Position numbers and translations under genes: made by a program | NCBI GenBank assembly: GCA_022496185.1 | Contig: WTXG01000060.1 | Location: 121,609 to 185,608 of the forward strand | Length of the DNA: 64,000 nucleotides | Direction of reading: 5' to 3' | DNA from: Multifurca ochricompacta | Taxonomy: Eukaryota > Basidiomycota > Agaricomycetes > Russulales > Russulaceae | Notes under the pieces: model-generated | What the model was told of the DNA's origin: nothing | Database searches by the model: none | What the model saw: only the letters and a program-made list of their open reading frames with translations | Shown here: piece after piece, positions 1 to 64,000 of the stretch | Layout of the letters: each line of letters starts with the position of its first letter | How positions within the stretch are numbered: the first letter of the stretch is position 1

Positions 1-72
1 CGCGGAGACGGTCCCAATGGTAGAAAAGTTGGTTTGTATTGAAAGAGACTTCGGTACAAATCGATCTATGAT

Positions 73-114
73 AGCCCTCAGGGTGGGACGACCCCTCAGG
101 CTGTTACAAAATCC
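73..114 (-). promoter_or_regulatory. Predicted -1 ribosomal frameshift signal, GypB gag/pol
   Basis: On the minus strand, heptamer GGATTTT (108-114) is read as xxG GAT TTT in the gag frame. It is followed by a 5-nt spacer GTAAC and a 30-nt hairpin (73-102): helix AGCCT/GGGCT, a GA/GA internal loop, helix GGGGT/ACCCT and loop CGTCCC. The gag stop TGA (96-98) lies inside the hairpin. The pol frame is -1 and is closed by a TGA one codon upstream of the heptamer, so the heptamer lies in the short overlap. GypD has the same layout at 52217-52258 with compensatory changes. Function is inferred. Confidence 0.75.
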
Positions 115-9148: not shown

Positions 9149-9798
9149 TGTAAGGATGGCTCGGGCGTTGGACGCGAAACCTCCGGTCATCACCACTTCT
9201 GGCAGGACCCGTTTGCTCTCATTCTTCCATACTATACTGTCAATAAATTTTCTAACATTTGCCTGACTTTAGTTTCGGACAGACTCTGACACCGGTGCAA
9301 AGCGTGATTGATCTATGGTACAAGTAATTTTACTTAGCATATTACAGGGATTGTGCGTGTTCCGGGCCGCCTGCCTATTCTTTTCCGTACACCCGGCTAC
9401 CCGGTTTCTCCCTTACTCCCTTTTACTTATTCCACTTTCGTTCACCCCACATGGCTTCACCTCTGTTTATTTCTAAAACATTCCTTCAGCTAGGTCTCTC
9501 CACAAGTATATAAAGGTACATACAATGCTTGTAGTAGACCAGCCAGTGAACAAGCAACCTAGGAATCTCTCTCCTCTCTCTTTTCTCTTCTTGTGTGCTA
9601 AAGAACCTCAACATTGTCCAGCGCAAGGTCAAACGGAACCAGCAAGCACGTATTTGCAAGTTCAAAAAGTACAACGACATCTCTCCTTCGACATCAAAGT
9701 TATCCTGGGTTTCTTCCTTCCTCCTCTCTCCTCTGTCTCTCTCTCTCCTCTTGGGAAACACGCTTTGCCTCTTACTCACCGCGGACCACGTCCGTACA
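9149..9798 (+). repeat. GypC 3' LTR
   Basis: Matches 2062-2711 with a few single-base differences (for example an extra G at CCTCCGG and at CAGGGATT, and CTCTTGGG against CTCTCGGG). It is preceded by a short purine-rich run (GGGAGA). Confidence 0.93.
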
Positions 9799-9802
9799 AT
9801 AG

Positions 9803-10004: not shown

Positions 10005-11244
10005 TCATCAATAATAGTTGCCAAAACCTAAGTAGCTTCGAACTTGTTTAACCGTCTTAGGTGTTGGCCAGTCGAGAAGACCGTTTATTTTTGTTGGGTC
10101 CATGGATATGGTACCCCCTTCGAGAACTAGTCCGAGGTAATCAGTCTTAGTTGAGCGGAATGTGCACTTTGGCGGTTTCAGAAAAGGATCGTTTTCGAGG
10201 AGGATTTGGAGTACCCGCGTGACACATTGTCGATGAAACGCGAGGTCACTCGACGTAGCTATAAGGATATCGTCCATATAAATGACGAGCCATCCTTCTT
10301 TGAGTTCCTTTTTTGATTATGGCGCTCATCATTGTTTGGAAAGTTGCTGGTGAATTCGTCAGACCAAAATACATTACTAGCTGTCTGAATAATCCTTTGT
10401 TCATCTTGAAGGTGGCTTTCCATTGATCACCTTCTTTGATGCAGACATTATTGTAACCCCATTGGACATCAAACTTTGTGAAAAGTGTTGCGTTTTGAAC
10501 TTTTGCAATTAGTTCATCTATGAGTGGGAGTGGATAATTATTTCGGATGGTATGTTCTTGTAAGAACTCTTCGAGTGCTATTTGTTCACTTGGGTTCAAA
10601 GGATATATTTTACAGTCTAGAGTAGGTGGGGCATCGGGTTTGAGGTCAATTGCGTGGTCCCATTGATGTGAATTGGGGAAACGTAGAGCGGCTTCTTCGG
10701 AAAAGGCCTTTGTGAAGTGTTGATACGGTTTGCGGACAGTGAGTTCGTCTGTCGGGTTTTGTTGATGGGGTTCTTCAGCGAGTGTTGTAAACAATGATAG
10801 TCGCATGACGAGTTCTTCGTTTTGTAACATTCCTAGGAAAGCAGCAGTAAGATGAGGAGTTTGCCCCCGTGGAAGGATGGAAACATCCTCCTGGATGGTT
10901 GGGGACGGCCAATCAATAGTGGGAGAGGTGCGTGCAAGCCAGGGGTAGCCGAGGACGACGTCCTCGGAACCCAGATCAGCGACAAAGAAGTCAAAGGAGT
11001 GAACAGAGGAGCCAGTGCGAACGGTACAGGGGAGAGAGGACGAGATCCGACCAGCGGCGTCAGCAGATCCGTCGGCGTTGGAGAGTATTTTTGGGGGAGG
11101 TTTGGAGACGATGGCGAGAAATGAAGCGGCGATGGATAAAATTTTCAGTGGCACCGCTGTCAACGAGTGCGAGAACAGTTCCAATAGAGGAGAACGATAG
11201 TTGTATTTTCAAAGCTTTAGGTACAAATCGATCTACAAGGGCCT
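10005..11244 (-). pseudogene. GypA pol fragment (protease and reverse transcriptase)
   Basis: Protease motif ALVDSGATENF near 11140-11175, then FFVADLGSEDVVLGYPWL. The reverse transcriptase follows with a frameshift near 10300 and MDDILIA near 10260. After YLGFGNYY two adjacent TGA codons (10005-10010) stand where GypD has RR in NYYRRFI. Further 3' sequence is broken by inserted elements. Confidence 0.85.
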
Positions 11245-12012
11245 TCAGGCGGTCTGAAAACCCAAGTCTGTATTCAACAGAGACCGAACTTCTTCTTTTT
11301 CTTCGGGAGGGAGATCCTTGAGTAAAGCGGCAATCTTCTCAGCTTTAGATTTCTTTGGTGCGGTCTGAGGGGAGGGAGTTGTTGTTTTTGGGGTTACGGT
11401 AATCGTTGCGGGGACAGAAGGAGCAGGTGAAGGTAGTGTTGTGACCGCGGTAGCAACACGAGGCTTCTTATGAGGGCAATCATGCGACAGACGTCCCTTC
11501 TTCATACAGTAAACACAGAGACCTTCACGTTTGCGCCGTTCTTTATCGTCGTCGGTGACAGCACGTCGGGTGACGTCGACAACCATAGCATTTGGGTCAC
11601 GTTGGGGAGTTGGTCGTGAGTTTGCCTGGGAACGGCGCCAGAATGGCGGGTCGTTACTTGGTCGCGTGACTCTACCCTTAAGTCCTTGGATAAGGATGAA
11701 ATTCTTCTGTTGTGTTTGTGCCGCCTTCTGCCATTCGTCGAGAGTTGTCGGGGAGTGGTATTGAATACATTCTACGGCTAACTGACCCTGAAGTCCTCTG
11801 GCAAAAATCCGGGTGGTACTGGGGTCATCGTTGTTGACGCCAGCACGTTGTATAAGAAGATTAAAGTTGGCGATATAATCGTCAATGCGTCCATTTTTCA
11901 TCCAGAGTTTTTGTACAGCGTCATATGCCTGTTCTTTTGCGGTGAAGTCCACAAGGTATCGGTGAAGCGCTTGGTCGACATCGTTCATTTCTGTGCAGTT
12001 TGTCGGTTGGTT
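11245..12012 (-). pseudogene. GypA gag fragment, N-terminus deleted
   Basis: Retains the gag C-terminal half: FTAKEQAYDAVQKLWMKNGRIDDYIANFN, zinc knuckle CVYCMKKGRLSHDC, and the end LGFQTA with TGA at 11245-11247. The N-terminal part present in GypB and GypD is missing, because the priming site is almost directly followed by mid-gag. Slippery heptamer GGGTTTT (11257-11263) is kept, but the downstream hairpin is lost through an 18-nt deletion. Confidence 0.85.
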
Positions 12013-31303: not shown

Positions 31304-31801
31304 TGTTGAACACAGAAGATGTTCGGTGATGCTTCAGGCATCAGGTGATTAGATTAGCTACTTTGTAGATTAGATTAGATACCGGAGTCTCGGACTTTTT
31401 ACACTATAATTATTACTTTCTTTCTCACATTCCGCAGTAGCTGACTGATACACCAGATAACATGTGATTTCTGTAGTAGCCAATAGCTTTACTCCTCATG
31501 TTTATTGTTTGGACTTTGTCCGGCACTTGAGGACTTATTCCCAGTGCACAGACCATCCCTTGGATAGTATATAAGGGTGTCTGTTTCATCTCTTACACTT
31601 CAGAGTTTCTTCTACCTCTGAAGTGTAAGTTGTCCTCTCTACTATCATCACTACCTTAGACTAACTCTGTATATAGAACTTGTCTTTATAGGTGTGTAGT
31701 ATAGTAATATAGAGTTTCTTCTACCTCTGAAGTAACTTGTCTTTATAGCCTTACACACTAACACTTACAGTCAGTATGCTGTGCCACATGCCTGTTTCAC
31801 A
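31304..31801 (+). repeat. CopC 5' LTR
   Basis: 498 bp, TGTTGAACAC to GTTTCACA. A TATA box (AGTATATAAGGG) lies near 31567. Repeated TTTCTTCTACCTCTGAAGT blocks follow. Confidence 0.93.
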
Positions 31802-32682
31802 GGTTATGGGCCCTGGGCTTGCTTTACTGATCTGTTTCTTCTTTTGATCAGTCCAACCTTTCTTCAAGCTCACAGCTTCAAGACTTCGTCTTTCCCAATC
31901 ACAGTCACAGTGAGCTTCGATTTTATTTCTCTTGCCCTTAACTGTCCACAAGGTGGTGTGCTTCATGTGCCCACCTTGATCTGTTGGCTAGTCCCTCAGG
32001 GGATTCTTGCAAAAGGTGATGAGGGACCCTAAGTGGGTGAAACACCTTGAGTTCCTCATGTGCGCTCTAAGTAAATAGTATTCTTAGAAGTAGCTGGGTT
32101 TTCGTCCCATCCATAGTCTTAGTAGGCCGCTTGCCCAAAGGCTTGGGGCTATAGGTTCAGTCAATGCTTGGCTCGATCCGTAAGCCAGGTTTAGCGACCT
32201 GCAGGTAGAGTTTAGGGTCTAGAACAAGGCATGGGTAGTCATTCCCATGATGCTTGGGCTCGATACAAGTAGGCTTGAACTACTATAGTATTTACACAGT
32301 AGCTAGAGGTTTTGTCTCTGGGCAGGAGTACCCACTGCTTTCATTGGGGGTTCGCCCCAACCAGAGGAAACCAATAGTCTACTATAGTCATGGCCCCAAT
32401 CATCTAGGGCTTAATCATGGACTCCACCACCAGCACTAGAGGAAGGGCTCTATACCCTTTGTCTCTAGTGGAACTTGCGGTTGGCTCCTCCATGACATGA
32501 CTCCCCATCTATTTACACAACGTCCCCCTGATGTGGGCTTAGGACTTGTTGTAGATGGCGCTAGATAGTCTACTATACTACTTAGAAGTCGCACATCAGA
32601 GGCAGGACTTTTTTAAGTTCTGAAGCATAGCGCCACAGAATGGACGGGCCCTCTTAAATGAGACCTGGACAACTGGTTCTAA

Positions 32683-37331: not shown

Positions 37332-37831
37332 TGTTGAACACAGAAGATGTTCGGTGATGCTTCAGGCATCAGGTGATTAGATTAGCTACTTTGTAGATTA
37401 GATTAGATACCGGAGTCTCGGACTTTTTACACTATAATTATTACTTTCTTTCTCACATTCCGCAGTAGCTGACTGATACACCAGATAACATGTGATTTCT
37501 GTAGTAGCCAATAGCTTTACTCCCTCATGTTTATTGTTTGGACTTTGTCCGGCACTTGAGGACTTATTCCCAGTGCACAGACCATCCCTTGGATAGTATA
37601 TAAGGGTGTCTGTTTCATCTCTTACACTTCAGAGTTTCTTCTACCTCTGAAGTGTAAGTTGTCCTCTCTACTATCATCACTACCTTAGACTAACTCTGTA
37701 TATAGAACTTGTCTTTATAGGTGTGTAGTATAGTAATATAGAGTTTCTTCTACCTCTGAAGTAACTTGTCTTTATAGCCTTACACGCTAACAACTTACAG
37801 TCAGTATGCTGCACCACATGCCTGTTTCACA
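37332..37831 (+). repeat. CopC 3' LTR
   Basis: 500 bp, with a few differences from 31304-31801 (for example CTCCCTC against CTCCTC, and GCTAACAAC against ACTAACAC). Confidence 0.93.
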
Positions 37832-44860: not shown

Positions 44861-45171
44861 TGTTACGGTCGGCAGGCCGTATCGTGCGCGAGATCGGAAG
44901 TCGTGATTCGGGGGCTCCAAAGGAGGTGTTCAGTGGTCTAGACGTCTGGGATTGTTCACAGGACAATCCAGAGAAAGGAGGAACAACAAGTCTGATTGTA
45001 ATACCGAAAGATACAAGAGCTCGAGTCTGAGACTCGAGGTGTTTGCTACCTAGCTACTATATAGTAAAGTGATATTGTGATCGACCGATCTGATTAAAAG
45101 TAGCGGGGAAAATAGGAAAGAGTTGATGGGCGCATATTGCGCCTTTGATGGTATAAAATTGAGGTGTAACA
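44861..45171 (-). repeat. GypD 3' LTR
   Basis: 311 bp, TGTTACGGTC to GGTGTAACA on the plus strand. The polypurine tract is adjacent at 45172-45184. Confidence 0.93.
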
Positions 45172-46508: not shown

Positions 46509-47739
46509 TGTTATGACCCTACTCTTTTCCTAACCCTGTACACCATGCCTGATTCCTTGCACTATCCTTGATCTCCTTCTCTGGACCACTCCTTGATGCC
46601 CTTGGCCTGTTGCCTTGGGACCTTCCTTGATGCCTGTGGCCTGTGTGCCCAGGACCTTACCCTGATGCCTATGACCTGTTGCTCATAGGACCTACCTCCC
46701 TTGCCACCATTTACACCTAACCTGCCAGTAGTTCTGCTACTTCACTGTTGGATGTACACCACCCCTCCTTGCTGCTTTGGCCTATGCCTTGGCCAATGCC
46801 TCTGACCCTGTCCCTGTGCTTGACATCCATAGGAACCCCTGATATTGTCCCTGCCAATCTGACCAGACGACTTTGGCTTGTACTTGACCCTCTGCCAGTC
46901 ATGTGACTCCTGGCCATGTGACCCTTGGCCATGTGATCCCTGACCATGTGACTTTGGACCATGTGATCCCTGACCCTGATCACAGCATCTTCATCTGATC
47001 ATTTACCCCTTTCTGATCACATGGCCCATCTGGCTTATCATTCGCTTCTCTGATTCCTGTGGGAGTATTCCCACATCCACCCTGACTCCTGTGGGACCTG
47101 TTATCTCCCCATTTACCCCTGACCCTGGTGGGAATCCTCCCACACTGATATGACTCCTGTGGGGCTGTCCCACATGATTATGCTTCTGATAAGGCTTATC
47201 CTTATCATGGACTATATTTGACATCTTATCTGCTATTGGATGATAAGGACTCTGACCCTGTTCCTGATTAGCTACAAACCAGATCCCCATACAGTATATA
47301 AGACCCTGTAGACAGTTTGTACAACCCTAGATTTGACCTCTTGGGCCTTCAGCCTAGAGATCTTAGACCCCAATACATCAGAAGCCTTTTCCCCCTTTTT
47401 TGCGTCCTTGAGATCCCTGCAGGGACCCCCATTGCCTCTGGCAATGGGTGTGTACCCTTCCTTTTGAACCCCTTTGCCACTCCCTAAGGGCTCCAGTGCA
47501 CTTGGTGTGCTTCCGGCACAGCAGCTGGGCCCTGTCCCCACTTAACAGCCTTAGGGGATTAGCTCCCTTTGGCTGGCTCATCCCGTCTCCCTCTGTGCTT
47601 GATTATAGCACCAAACCTTGACCAATTCCGAAGCTAGACAGTGCCCAGAGTCTAGCCTTATTGTGCTAGGCTCGTGGCTGAGGTAATGGACCCGCGCCGA
47701 CCCGTGCACGCCGCACAGAACGCTCCGCTGAGCGTAACA
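46509..47739 (+). repeat. Solo LTR (1231 bp) in GypD integrase
   Basis: Begins TGTTATGACCC, ends GCGTAACA, TSD CAACA at 46504-46508 and 47740-47744. Removing it restores the integrase frame (TITGADVAKLYL). TATA (AGTATATAAGACC) near 47287 suggests plus-strand sense. It holds imperfect repeats of CCATGTGAYCCYTGRC (46905-46975). No full element of this family is in the window. Confidence 0.88.
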
Positions 47740-47744
47740 CAACA

Positions 47745-49856
47745 TCAGCACCAGTTATCGTTGTTGAACAAGGGATGAATTTTGCTGCCTTTGAGCATCC
47801 CTGATCCACTATGGTTAGTATGGCGTTTGTGCCATTAGACGGCGGGAGATCAGTGATAAGATCCAGTGAAATGTATTGAAAGGGACCCTCCGTGGCTTTG
47901 ACGTCAAACGGGAATCGCGGCACCAGGGTTTTCTTCTGCGGTTTTAGGGATTGACACTCATGGCATCCTTTGACATACTCATAGATGAATTCTCTTAGAC
48001 CTTCGCCCTCGTAGATGTCCCGTACGAGATCCCATGTATTCTTCTGACCTGGATGCCCAGCTAGCGGATGATCGTGAAATTGTTTTGCGATGGCGCGATA
48101 GGTATTCTCATCATTTTGTAATTTAATTGTGGCAACGGTCCATCGGTCATCCGGTAATAGAATTACCTCTTGATTATCTTCTTTCCCGGTATCGTGATTG
48201 GGTCGTCGCGACAGGAGGTCCGCGATAAGATTGCGTTTCCCCGCGATCGGTTTGATGATAAAGTTGTATTCCATCAGATCGAGGTGCCATCGGGCTTGCC
48301 GCCTGTTGAGCTTCTGCGCCTTGCGGAAATATTGGAGATTATGATGATCTGTGAACACAGTGAGCACATGAGGGGAACCAGCCAGGTATTGACACCATTC
48401 AATGAGTGGTAACCAGATGGCGAAGAGTTCGCGGTCATAGATGTCCCAGTTACGTTGTGTTTCGTCGAGTGACTTAGATAGGAATGCCAGTGGGTGGAGT
48501 TGCCCTTTGTCGTCTTGTTGTGCTAATTCAGCGCCGATAGCGAAGCCGGACGCGTCCATCGACAGGTAGAAGGGTCGATCCATTTGAGGCTGATGGAGTA
48601 CGGGTGCCGTAGTGAAAGCCCTCTTCAAGGCATGGAATGCCATGTCTTCCTTTTCTCCCCAATTCCATGGAACGTTTTGCTTGGTGAGATCGATTAGGGG
48701 TCGCACGACGTGAGAGTAATTTTTTATGAACCGGCGATAATAGTTTCCAAACCCGAGATAGCTTCGCACTTGACGGACATTGGCCGGAACTGGCCAATCG
48801 AGGATTCCCTTGACCTTCACAGGGTCCATCATTATGGTACCTCCAGTGAGAACCACGCCTAAGTAGTCGACAGTCATTGCATGAAAGACACATTTTGTTA
48901 GTTTGAGGAATAAATTGTTGTCTTGGAGAATCTGCAGCACCCTTGTTACACACTGTTTGTGGAACACGGCATCGTCTGCGGTTGCGACTAGTATATCATC
49001 CATGTAGATAACCAGCCATCCCTCGTCCAGTTCTTTTCTGAAGAGTGCATTCATCATTGTCTGAAAGGTGGCTGGCGAGTTCGTAAGCCCAAAGTACATT
49101 ACTAAGGGTTCGAAGAGACCCTTGTTTGTTTTGAAGGCCACTTTCCACTGATCGCCCTCTTTGATGCGAATATTGTTGTATCCCCAGCGGACATCAAATT
49201 TTGTGAACAGGGAGGCGTGTCGTACTTTAGTGATCAATTCGTCGATTAACGGTAAGGGGTATGTGTTACGGACGGTCCAGTCATTCAGCTTCCTGTAGTC
49301 TTGCACTGGCCTCAATTTCCCGTCTTTCTTTTTGACGAAGAAGAATGGCGAGGCATAGTGTGATTTAGATTCTCGGATGTATCCCTTCGTCAGATGTTCC
49401 TTGAGGAACTCATCCAAAGCTTCCTGTTCTCTAGGATTTAAGGGGTAGATTTTGCAATCGAGAGAGGAGGGCGCGTCAGGTTTCAAGTCGATGGCGTGGT
49501 CCCAGAGCCACGAGTCCGGAAGTCGGAGTGCTTCCGTCTCAGAGAAGACTTTGGCAAATTGCTGATATTGCGGAGGGATTTCTTCAGTAATCGTGGGTGA
49601 GCCCTGTTCGGCGAGGGCTTGAGCGGGCGACACCCGGCGGAGGCGTACGTATAGTTCCTCCCCAGGGAGTAGTCCAAGGGCTGCAAGTTTCAGTGGTTGC
49701 TGGGGAATGATACTGACCGATCTTTGATTATTCCGTTTGTCCAATCAATAGTAGGGTTGGCATCCGCTAACCAGGGGTATCCCAAAATAATTTGCTCGTC
49801 GCCCAGGTTTGCGACAAAAAATCGCTGTTGACTCGTTTTCCCTCCGGTGGAGATTA
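47745..49856 (-). pseudogene. GypD pol: reverse transcriptase, RNase H, integrase start
   Basis: From 49856 leftward: end of protease (FFVANLGDEQIILGYPWLADANPTIDW), a frameshift near 49735, then one frame with reverse transcriptase (YIRESKSHYASPFFFVKKKDG, IYMDDILVATAD), RNase H (LSMDASGFAIGAEL, FTDHHNLQYF) and integrase zinc finger (HDHPLAGHPG, CHECQSLK) and first Asp (ISLDLITDLPPSNG). Confidence 0.9.
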
Positions 49857-51762: not shown

Positions 51763-51992
51763 GATATTTCTGATACCCACTCACAAAACTGAGTCAATGA
51801 GTCCCCAATTTGAAATGGGCATAGCTCCACAGGTTTTGATCAGAATTACATAATAATTGTTGCATTACATAACCCTTATCTTGTACCTTTTATGGTCTAC
51901 CAAGACTTTGTTTATACTTGTTTTGGCTGATGCAATATTCAACAAACAGTGCAAAAGTGCAAAACATTGACTCAGTTTTGTGAGGCACTGTA

Positions 51993-52242
51993 CAGTCGAC
52001 GTACTGGGTTATTTGTCCGATTGAGTTACTTGTTCTGTCAGCGTTGCTCAACTTCCGAGGGTTATCTAGAGGTTGGGTTATTAATTGCTTTTCACAGACA
52101 AATCTGGGGTGTAGGAAATTCTCGGTAGCACCGCTATCGACCAGGGCTAACACGGTCCCATTTTGAGAGAATGATGCTTCGATTTTCAATGATCTAGGTA
52201 CATTCTTACTCAATATGGCCTTCAGGACAGGACGGTCCTTCA
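51993..52242 (-). pseudogene. GypD pol start and protease
   Basis: In the -1 frame relative to gag: LKDRPVLKAILSKNVPRSLKIEASFSQNG, then TVLALVDSGATENFLHPRFV, the aspartic protease active site. Continues at 49856 beyond the fold-back element. Confidence 0.88.
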
Positions 52243-52258
52243 GGCCTCGGTAAAACCC
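52217..52258 (-). promoter_or_regulatory. Predicted -1 ribosomal frameshift signal, GypD gag/pol
   Basis: Minus strand: heptamer GGGTTTT (52252-52258) read as xxG GGT TTT, spacer ACCGA (5 nt), hairpin 52217-52246 with helix GGCCT/AGGCC, GA/GA loop, helix AGGAC/GTCCT and loop CGTCCT. The gag TGA is 52240-52242. The -1 frame is closed by a TGA 12 nt before the heptamer and open after it into pol. Layout identical to GypB, with several base-pair swaps. Confidence 0.8.
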
Positions 52259-53664
52259 TCTCGGTCAGGCAATCCCATTAGTCCTCGCAGCTCCTCCTCC
52301 TGTTCTGCGGTTATCTTCTTCAGAACGTCCGCAATCGTGCTCATCGAGGGGGTTGTGGTCTTTTGCGCGGTTTGCACGGCCGTCATCATACCAGTTGGTC
52401 CCAGAGAATTGGTGCTTGTGTTTGTGTCACCGGATACTGCAACTGCGGCGCGTGTCTTCTTGTCTGGACAGTTTCGAGAGATGTGGTTTTGCCTCCCACA
52501 GTTGAAGCATCGCCCCTCGCATCGGTATTTTTCCTTGTCTTCATCGGTAATGGCTCGTCAAATGGCATCTACGTCCATAGCATCAGTAGCGCGTTGTTGT
52601 TGCGGTCGTACTTGGTTACTTGATTGCCCCCGTCGTTGCCAAAAGAATCCAGAGGCTTGTCGACCTTGAGGGTTGTCATTATCGCGAATGGCTTGTATAG
52701 CGAGGAAGTTTCGCTGCTGTGTCTGAGACGCTGAGATCCACTGGTCTAGAGTGGCAGGTGCGTGTAGGGCGATACACGATTCGGCGAGGCGTCCTTGAAG
52801 ACCTCGTGCGAACTGTCATAAGGTGTTCGGTTCGTCTCGGCTCAGTCCCGCGCGATGCACAAGCATGATAAAAGCAGAGATGTACTCGTCAATTCTGCCA
52901 TCTTTCATCTTGAGCTTTCTAATCTCATCCTGGGCTCGCTCGTGCACTGCAAAGTCATAGAAGGCAGTTTTAAATTGTTGCTCAAGTGCTTCCCACGCGT
53001 TCTTTTGCCATGGAAGTCGGGAGGGGTCGTTTTCAACAGTGAGAAGATATTCTGTCATTCGAATTTGGAAACCCTGGACAGTTTCTCCCTCCATCTGTTG
53101 GATAAAGAAATGTGATTTTCGAAGAGGGTCTTTTGCAATGTCAGCATCCCGGTTGATGCTCATAAACTGGTTGAAGAGCATTAGGAAGTACTCGGCCTTC
53201 GATCGGTCTCCATTGTACTTGAAGGGGAGCGACCCTTCGAGGCGATTAGATATCGGCTTACTGGTGGGAGGGGTAGTCGCCCTTGGTGGGACTACAGTAG
53301 TTGCAGGGGGGTTGTTTTGGATGATTGCCCCTCCTTGCTGCAGGGCCTGGAAATCTATGCCGGCGGCGGGGTTCTGTGGTAGGTTGAGCTCAGGTCGAGC
53401 GACTCGGGTTGCTTGGTAGTCTTGCAAGTGTATAAAATAATATATTTCGAACCATATTCCGTGGACTTGTTCGACAGGCATGAGAACATTATTTAATATT
53501 CCAAAATACCCTTGCCAGGGTGCTCCGAGTACTCCGGGTTGTAGCCAGGTTAAGCCCAGTCGTTGATCTTGTGGTACGTCATCGATACCGCGTGGGGAGA
53601 GACTGAATGGTAGTGTAAGCTGCGCTAGCTGCGCCATCGGTTGTGCGACGTTTGGGGTCGACAT
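52240..53664 (-). pseudogene. GypD gag
   Basis: ATG at 53664. Capsid-like region (QFMSINRDADIAKDPLRKSHFFIQQMEGETVQGF, KMKDGRIDEYISAFIMLVHRAGL), zinc knuckle CFNCGRQNHISRNC near 52470-52510, end GLPDREGFTEA and TGA. Two in-frame TGA codons (52816-52818 in NTL-QFARGLQG, and near 52558 in DAI-RAITDEDK) stand where GypA and GypB have Arg. No frameshift seen. Confidence 0.88.
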
Positions 53665-53726: not shown

Positions 53727-54037
53727 TGTTACGGTCGGCAGGCCGTATCGTGCGCGAGATCGGAAGTCGTGATTCAGGGGCTCCGAAGGAGGTGTTCAGT
53801 GGTCTAGACATCTGGGATTGTTCGCAGGACAATCCAGAGAAAGGAGGAACAACAAGTCTGATTGTAATACCGAAAGATACAAGAGCTCGAGTCTGAGACT
53901 CGAGGTGTTTGCTACCTAGCTACTATATAGTAAAGTGATATTGTGATCGACCGATCTGATTAAAAGTAGCAGGGAAAATAGGAAAGAGTTGATGGGCGCA
54001 TATTGCGCCTTTGATGGTATAAAATTGAGGTGTAACA
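53727..54037 (-). repeat. GypD 5' LTR
   Basis: 311 bp, five transitions from 44861-45171. Confidence 0.93.
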
Positions 54038-63479: not shown

Positions 63480-63978
63480 TGTTGAACACAGAAGATGTTC
63501 GGTGATGCTTCAGGCATCAGGTGATTAGATTAGCTACTTTGTAGATTAGATTAGATACCGGAGTCTCGGACTTTTTACACTATAATTATTACTTTCTTTC
63601 TCACATTCCGCAGTAGCTGACTGATACACCAGATAACATGTGATTTCTGTAGTAGCCAATAGCTTTACTCCCTCATGTTTATTGTTGGACTTTGTCCGGC
63701 ACTTGAGGACTTATTCCCAGTGCACAGACCATCCCTTGGATAGTATATAAGGGTGTCTGTTTCGTCTCTTACACTTCAGAGTTTCTTCTACCTCTGAAGT
63801 GTAAGTCGTCCTCTCTACTATCATCACTACCTTAGACTAACTCTGTATATAGAACTTGTCTTTATAGGTGTGTAGTATAGTAATATAGAGTTTCTTCTAC
63901 CTCTGAAGTAACTTGTCTTTATAGCCTTACACGCTAACAACTTACAGTCAGTATGCTGCGCCACATGCCTGTTTCACA
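63480..63978 (+). repeat. CopC-family LTR at the window's right end
   Basis: 499 bp, about 99% like the CopC LTRs. It is followed by GGTTATGG and TGGGTGCTTTACTG, the primer-site region of CopC with a small deletion, so it is the 5' LTR of an element that continues outside. Confidence 0.92.
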
Positions 63979-64000
63979 GGTTATGGTGGGTGCTTTACTG

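Follow-up and report, generated by a model that had tools for sequence, protein, structure and literature searches.

The window, by which we mean the whole stretch of 64,000 nucleotides that was analysed, harbors on its minus strand the element GypD, which is flanked on both sides by LTRs of 311 nt, and at its beginning the gag–pol junction of a second element, GypB (Table 1). The Pfam matches in the window are Retrotrans_gag, RVT_1, RT_RNaseH, and Integrase_H2C2; the protease domain RVP_2 was matched in the GypD relative L002, and the integrase core had no Pfam match in the pieces searched. As GypD has LTRs together with Pfam matches to gag, protease, reverse transcriptase, RNase H, and the integrase zinc-binding domain, we assign it to the Ty3/gypsy-type elements; the LTRs, a gag gene, and the order protease, reverse transcriptase, RNase H, integrase of a Ty3/gypsy LTR retrotransposon are present.

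The copy of GypD in the window is broken. Its gag contains in-frame stops, and its protease frame leaves that of the other GypD copies after ∼90 codons and soon closes. Near position 51990 the protease region is split by an insertion with the terminal sequence ACAGTGCCTCACAAAACTGAGTCAATG...; GypD copy L008 is split at another place by an insertion with this terminal sequence as well, which points to a separate mobile element. Near-identical long repeats (97–99%) are found at 2062–2712 and 9149–9799 as well as at 37332–37831, 31304–31829, and 63480–64000, which suggests that other young LTR elements reside elsewhere in the window. A third gag–pol junction belongs to a G-like element. Its hairpin lacks 18 nt, in frame, in comparison with the relative at G000:C162 (L052), where the hairpin is complete. 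The loss looks like a deletion between two CCTGAAGG repeats of the hairpin arms.

Table 1. Positions of the GypD, GypB, and G-like features within the window.
Feature	Position	Strand	Remark
GypD LTR (3′)	44861..45171	−	
GypD pol: reverse transcriptase, RNase H, integrase zinc-binding domain	47666..49744	−	Pfam
GypD GGGAC, complement of the hairpin loop, 57 nt downstream of it; putative stem 2 of a pseudoknot	52155..52159	−	weak candidate
GypD 30-nt hairpin: 5 bp, GA/GA, 5 bp, loop CGTCCT	52217..52246	−	
GypD gag stop TGA, within the hairpin 5′ arm	52240..52242	−	translation
GypD 5-nt spacer ACCGA	52247..52251	−	
GypD slippery heptamer GGGTTTT, gag frame G_GGT_TTT	52252..52258	−	intact in 8/8 GypD copies
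GypD gag, N-terminal open part, Retrotrans_gag	52816..53664	−	rest of this gag copy with in-frame stops
GypD LTR (5′)	53727..54037	−	98.4% identical to the 3′ LTR
GypB GGGAC, 57 nt downstream of its hairpin; putative stem 2 of a pseudoknot	11..15	−	weak candidate; same copy as L010
GypB 30-nt hairpin	73..102	−	folding, covariation, synonymous null
GypB gag stop TGA, within the hairpin 5′ arm	96..98	−	translation
GypB 5-nt spacer GTAAC	103..107	−	
GypB slippery heptamer GGATTTT, gag frame G_GAT_TTT	108..114	−	intact in 15/16 GypB copies
Third gag–pol junction, G-like: GGGTTTT (11263-11257), CAGAC, shortened hairpin CGCCTGAAGGCC	11240..11263	−	

From plus-strand coordinate 52258 down to 52217 the junction of GypD reads GGGTTTT ACCGA GGCCT GA AGGAC CGTCCT GTCCT GA AGGCC, and from 114 down to 73 that of GypB reads GGATTTT GTAAC AGCCT GA GGGGT CGTCCC ACCCT GA GGGCT. 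A heptamer, a spacer of 5 nt, and a hairpin of 30 nt had been claimed for both elements in a preliminary description of this DNA and were found as described, on the minus strand. Translation also bears out two further claims of that description, namely that the gag TGA sits inside the hairpin in both elements and that pol lies in the −1 frame, as the protease motif DSGAT of GypD is read in the −1 frame relative to gag. Because the window ends before the DSGAT of GypB, this motif was read in locus L010, the same copy, where it is likewise in the −1 frame. Taken alone, both hairpins fold as drawn. The energy is −16.8 kcal/mol for GypD (z −4.9), a value reached by none of 200 shuffles, and −15.9 kcal/mol for GypB (z −1.7), a value reached by 14 of 200.

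Further copies were sought in the same 53.8-Mb genome, from which all of the evidence derives; judging by element type and genome size, the host is probably a basidiomycete fungus. Used as DNA queries, the two junctions yielded 9 and 28 matches; of 27 matches to a sequence pattern, 19 were junctions and 8 unrelated (7 matches with control patterns); and a protease search gave 150 scored matches out of 1646 candidates, of whose ∼100 weaker matches five enter our counts. From the loci L001–L099 we tabulated 46 copies with the whole 42 nt, which fall into ten families: D (GypD), B (GypB), E–J, K, and M. Families K and M comprise five short pieces only, with a protease 41–43% identical to that of family G, and there is no K/M-type junction beyond L095–L099 in the fetched loci or the window; family H is one decayed copy. 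Left out of the table are the 8 unrelated matches, repeat finds, second pieces (L026, L093), C166 (L034, L076), in which the hairpin is kept with another sequence on its 5′ side, and the G-like copy of the window, which is 18 nt short. The counts also exclude the junctions at C45, C27, C239, and C116. Outside this genome, an exact degenerate pattern had 0 matches in viral_contigs and genome_contigs, protein-alignment scans of viral_contigs yielded no confirmed relative, and Rfam had 0 matches in the window at the gathering score. A protein search found 13 related proteases (‘ena’); the 12 that were fetched do not display the junction and so have no bearing on the RNA.

Heptamer (7 nt), spacer (5 nt), and hairpin (30 nt) follow each other without indel in the 46 copies, a uniformity that is partly by construction, because the scripts for picking copies and one of the searches required this spacing. 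The same layout is nevertheless present in the 8 GypD and 16 GypB loci, which were found by DNA similarity, and in the five distant pieces, which were found by protein position alone; the exceptions are C166 (L076) and the G-like copy of the window. The heptamer is intact in 41 copies (GGGTTTT in 21, GGATTTT in 20) and decayed in five; since many copies are decayed, some of the conservation may reflect recent shared ancestry. Thus a heptamer of the type X_XXY_YYZ stands in the zero frame. In 44 of the 46 copies gag terminates at one and the same codon, located in the 5′ arm of the hairpin (TGA 41, TAA 3). Family I has TGG at this codon, and its gag is closed by a TGA of the 3′ arm, six codons further on; GypD copy L004 is also devoid of a gag stop at the usual codon.

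The preliminary description had drawn two 5-bp helices split by GA/GA and closed by the loop CGTCCY. This drawing fits GypD and GypB but, because spacer, internal loop, and terminal loop vary over the ten families, it does not hold for the group as a whole. Neither the spacer sequence nor the terminal loop is conserved across the families, and the internal loop is variously GA/GA, GA/TA, GA/AA, AA/AA, or GG/GA, or is closed by pairing with TC; in the distant families K and M there is no internal loop and the stem is continuous over ∼10 bp. We also considered GA/GA as a conserved tandem mismatch and rejected it, as its 3′ side is GA, TA, AA, or TC and its 5′ side follows the stop codon. Variants of the loop in which CGTCC has become TGTCC or CATCC (L008, L016, L019, L021–L023, L032, L047, L058, L063, L064) resemble the outcome of C-to-T changes at CpG sites of one or the other strand, that is, a methylation- or RIP-like decay. 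As a separate observation, a valine codon 15 nt after the hairpin (pol codon 19 counted from the heptamer) is GTA in 7/7 near representatives and in all 4 distant pieces long enough to include it, synonymous spellings being free (for example, L003, L012, L028, L095).

The shift would have to occur between the last stop of the −1 frame and the gag stop. Among the representatives of the eight near families, this overlap zone spans 22–25 nt in B, E, and H and 52–187 nt in the other five. In seven of these eight representatives (K and M are outside this count) the heptamer is the only in-phase one within the zone; in the eighth, family H, it is decayed. All tabulated copies of B, E, H, K, and M have a stop in the −1 frame 0–2 codons before the heptamer. 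A TGA closing the −1 frame just upstream of the heptamer, as had been stated for both elements, is accordingly the rule in GypB (16/16, one codon upstream), but in GypD the nearest such stop adjoins the heptamer in only 2/8 copies and lies 56 codons upstream in the other 6/8.

The pairing of the hairpin arms is well preserved. Eight core pairs (4 + 4) form in 99% of the cells over 29 distinct sequences. When all ten pairs of the preliminary description are counted 89% of the cells pair, which none of 500 shuffles reached, and sliding the partner by one column reduces this value to 46% or 63%. Between GypD and GypB three pairs are changed on both sides and two further pairs become G-U wobbles. 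The three swapping pairs proposed earlier thus exist; two of them, however, are the outermost and the innermost pair, each of which fails in 15 of the 29 distinct sequences and is formed in only 14. The covariation score is 0.351 vs 0.203 in shuffles and there are 37 doubly changed cells vs 13.7 (0/500 as high in both cases); the number of pairs with a double change (142/500 as high) and the number of pair types (330/500 as high) stay within the shuffles. We also simulated a null on a tree, which was built from 68 nt that include the hairpin. Under this null the 37 doubly changed paired cells compare with a mean of 5.4 (0/500 as high) and the five pairs with a double change with 1.6 (1/500 as high); the percentage paired was reached by 17/500. 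A lack of covariation or of heptamer conservation was thus looked for among many copies of the same genome and not found, and conservation with covariation, as originally claimed, holds for doubly changed cells beyond both the shuffles and the tree null and for the heptamer.

Judged from the sequences, the 42 nt very probably act as a programmed −1 ribosomal frameshift signal that links gag to pol in Ty3/gypsy-type LTR retrotransposons. What computation shows is the frames, the heptamer and its spacing, the position of the stop, the pairing with its covariation, and a stability beyond what coding demands (see below), and the proposal of −1 frameshifting made in the preliminary description is supported by the intact heptamers, the covariation, the hairpin energies, and by the frames, their overlap, and the rarity of an internal start. 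We infer slippage itself and how efficient it is, a pausing of the ribosome, and a requirement for a ratio of Gag to Gag-Pol. We suggest that ribosomes translating gag would arrive at G_GGT_TTT or G_GAT_TTT, where the hairpin, five nucleotides further on, would be located at the mRNA entrance and hinder them. A minority would slip back by one base, with both tRNAs re-pairing in the −1 frame (tandem slippage, as known from retroviruses and other LTR elements), and would continue into protease, reverse transcriptase, and integrase, giving a Gag-Pol fusion. As the gag stop is in the 5′ arm of the stem, ribosomes that do not shift would melt the hairpin and terminate there at TGA or TAA, three codons past the heptamer, releasing Gag.

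The stimulator might be larger than the hairpin. Possibly, though we would sooner doubt it than rely on it, the full stimulator is an H-type pseudoknot in which the loop GTCCY pairs with a GGGAC 57 nt downstream, giving a stem 1 of 8–10 bp, a first loop of 1–2 nt, a stem 2 of 5 bp, and a long third loop. Such a structure would refine the frameshift explanation and not contradict it, and its geometry, with 1–2 nt in the first loop, no gap at the stem junction, and a third loop of some length, would be in keeping with H-type pseudoknots that stimulate frameshifting. GGGAC is found at +57 in 36/40 near-family copies that are long enough and at +56 in one more, having been lost in the three others by indels or insertion. 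The glycine codon in it is GGG in 7/7 representatives (one of them, from family F, a decayed copy, which was also used in the synonymous null), even though GGG makes up just 17/118 glycine codons there, and a single spelling occurs in only 2/21 of the downstream conserved 4- or 6-fold codons. Against this, the pairing between loop and GGGAC is without covariation, and the synonymous null for six representatives gives the complementarity at +57 in 20–24% of the recodings and a complement somewhere downstream in 38–41%. In addition, family G (loop GTCCA) is without the fifth pair and families K and M have another loop (ACGGCC, GCGGCC, ATGGCC), so that in these two the downstream partner would have to differ.

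It is conceivable, and we put it forward more tentatively still, that all ten families inherited one ancestral cassette with a frozen layout of 7 + 5 + 30 nt, the gag stop in the 5′ arm, and a pseudoknot between the loop and a downstream sequence. The cassette would have diverged into two architectures, a stem of 4 + 4 to 5 + 5 bp with an internal loop and a continuous stem of ∼10 bp, and the partner would have changed with the loop. The predicted partners are GTCCY with GGGAC and, in the distant families, CGGCC with a downstream GGCC(G).

The frameshift reading assigns the hairpin a role in the shift itself. Such heptamers can shift somewhat on their own, and one could therefore suppose that the bare heptamer suffices and that the hairpin serves another RNA task, for example, packaging, dimerisation, or stability. 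We consider this very improbable, as the hairpin starts 5 nt past the heptamer in the 46 copies (in part an effect of our filter) and also in the five pieces chosen by protein position, and 5 nt is the distance expected of a frameshift stimulator.

A different objection concerns the coding capacity of the hairpin, which might be a mere side effect of the pol peptide L-K/R-x-R-P-x-L-K/R-A, since the Leu-Lys codons that nearly repeat in it show partial self-complementarity. The peptide is indeed conserved, and the 3′ part of the hairpin codes in pol only. We compared the hairpin with synonymous recodings of pol in which the gag stop was kept. Its energy was below that of the recodings with P ≤ 0.013 in nine of the ten families (D 0.001, B 0.004, E 0.005, F 0.003, G 0.013, H 0.011, J 0.013, K 0 of 1000, M 0.002) and with P = 0.06 in the tenth, family I; when the stop was not kept, P was 0 to 0.03 in the same nine families and 0.055 in the tenth. 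Less discriminating was the plain pair count, which reached P < 0.05 in 4/10 families (B, F, K, M) and stayed within the synonymous null in the other six, as expected from coding alone; the count of Watson-Crick pairs reached this level in 6/10 (D, B, E, F, K, M). Nevertheless, the energies, the doubly changed cells in excess of the tree null, and the fact that K and M, with other residues (L-N-x-x-A-x-I-R-A or, in K, T-A in the middle), still pair in the same register make a purely coding origin of the hairpin scarcely credible. In families D, B, E, and F no other 30-nt window of the 1.6–3.3 kb locus is as stable as the hairpin, which in H, G, I, and J ranks among the lowest 2, 4, 10, and 31 of ∼3000 windows, respectively. 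Folds in a context of 58–79 nt are less distinctive (z −2.5 in D, −1.4 in B, −0.9 in E, −1.3 in J, −0.3 in I, −1.6 in F; −4.1 in K), and in family I the best fold in context differs from the hairpin. Taken together, a structure a few nucleotides downstream of the heptamer, where a stimulator is located, has its pairing kept by selection, some of the measures not being significant.

Finally, pol might be reached by another route, that is by termination and reinitiation, by an internal start, or by splicing across the gag stop. Only a few codons separate the gag stop from the pol frame, and an ATG in the pol frame before DSGAT does occur in family J (3/3) and in GypD copy L007. In contrast, 28 of the 32 copies having DSGAT contain no pol-frame ATG between the heptamer and this protease active site; the downstream frame is the −1 frame and is without a start of its own. 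To these routes we give next to no weight: −1 frameshifting fits the frames, the overlap zone, and the 28/32 copies without an internal start better than the other routes considered. Stop readthrough is ruled out, because pol is in another frame than gag.

The principle of such a signal and both heptamers are already known, and the general picture of LTR element expression remains unchanged by this cassette, which is a conserved example in Ty3/gypsy elements. What the junctions offer is a compact and well-supported frameshift cassette in ten natural variants, which share one layout and differ in their pairs, internal loop, and loop, and which can be compared directly to learn what parts of a stimulator are important. 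For the annotation of such elements they also provide a practical rule on how gag and pol are to be connected. No description of this hairpin cassette was found in the open-licence literature among the matches listed; passages of PMC3411680, PMC3248453, and PMC4600332 contain nothing on it, and section 11 of a review (PMC5009743) does not name a hairpin of 30 nt whose arm holds the gag stop.

In the same review G_GGU_UUU ranks with the heptamers at which mammalian ribosomes shift most readily, and GGATTTT, which departs from the strict X_XXY, is nonetheless a known shift site there (PMC5009743). According to a 2003 survey cited in it, −1 frameshifting between gag and pol is known in LTR retrotransposons including Ty3/gypsy; pol is likewise in the −1 frame of gag with a classical heptamer near the end of gag, and the review adds that fungi show a less skewed proportion of +1 to −1 than animals do (PMC5009743). 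Among the Gypsy elements of fungi, a pol in the −1 frame has been described for VdLTRE2–4 of Verticillium, in a passage that mentions no heptamer or hairpin (PMC3441728). The gag–pol junction of the plant Sireviruses resembles ours in having a short conserved motif (27 nt) with a possible 11-bp stem, covariant nucleotides, and a recoding puzzle at the gag terminator, but it belongs to the Copia superfamily and has pol in the +1 frame (PMC5009743). We considered a junction of the Sirevirus type for the elements of the window and rejected it, as here pol is in the −1 frame and the reverse transcriptase precedes the integrase.

The mammalian gene PEG10 uses the heptamer GGGAAAC with a pseudoknot. 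PEG10 and its sushi-ichi relatives are similar to the elements described here in that a gag–pol derived from a retrotransposon is joined by frameshifting of the retroviral type, PEG10 differing in being a mammalian gene (PMC7212762). A parallel to the GypB heptamer is found in pea enation mosaic virus, whose RNA2 likewise uses G_GAU_UUU with a stop codon close downstream, although for the polymerase of a plant virus and in unrelated genes (PMC5009743).
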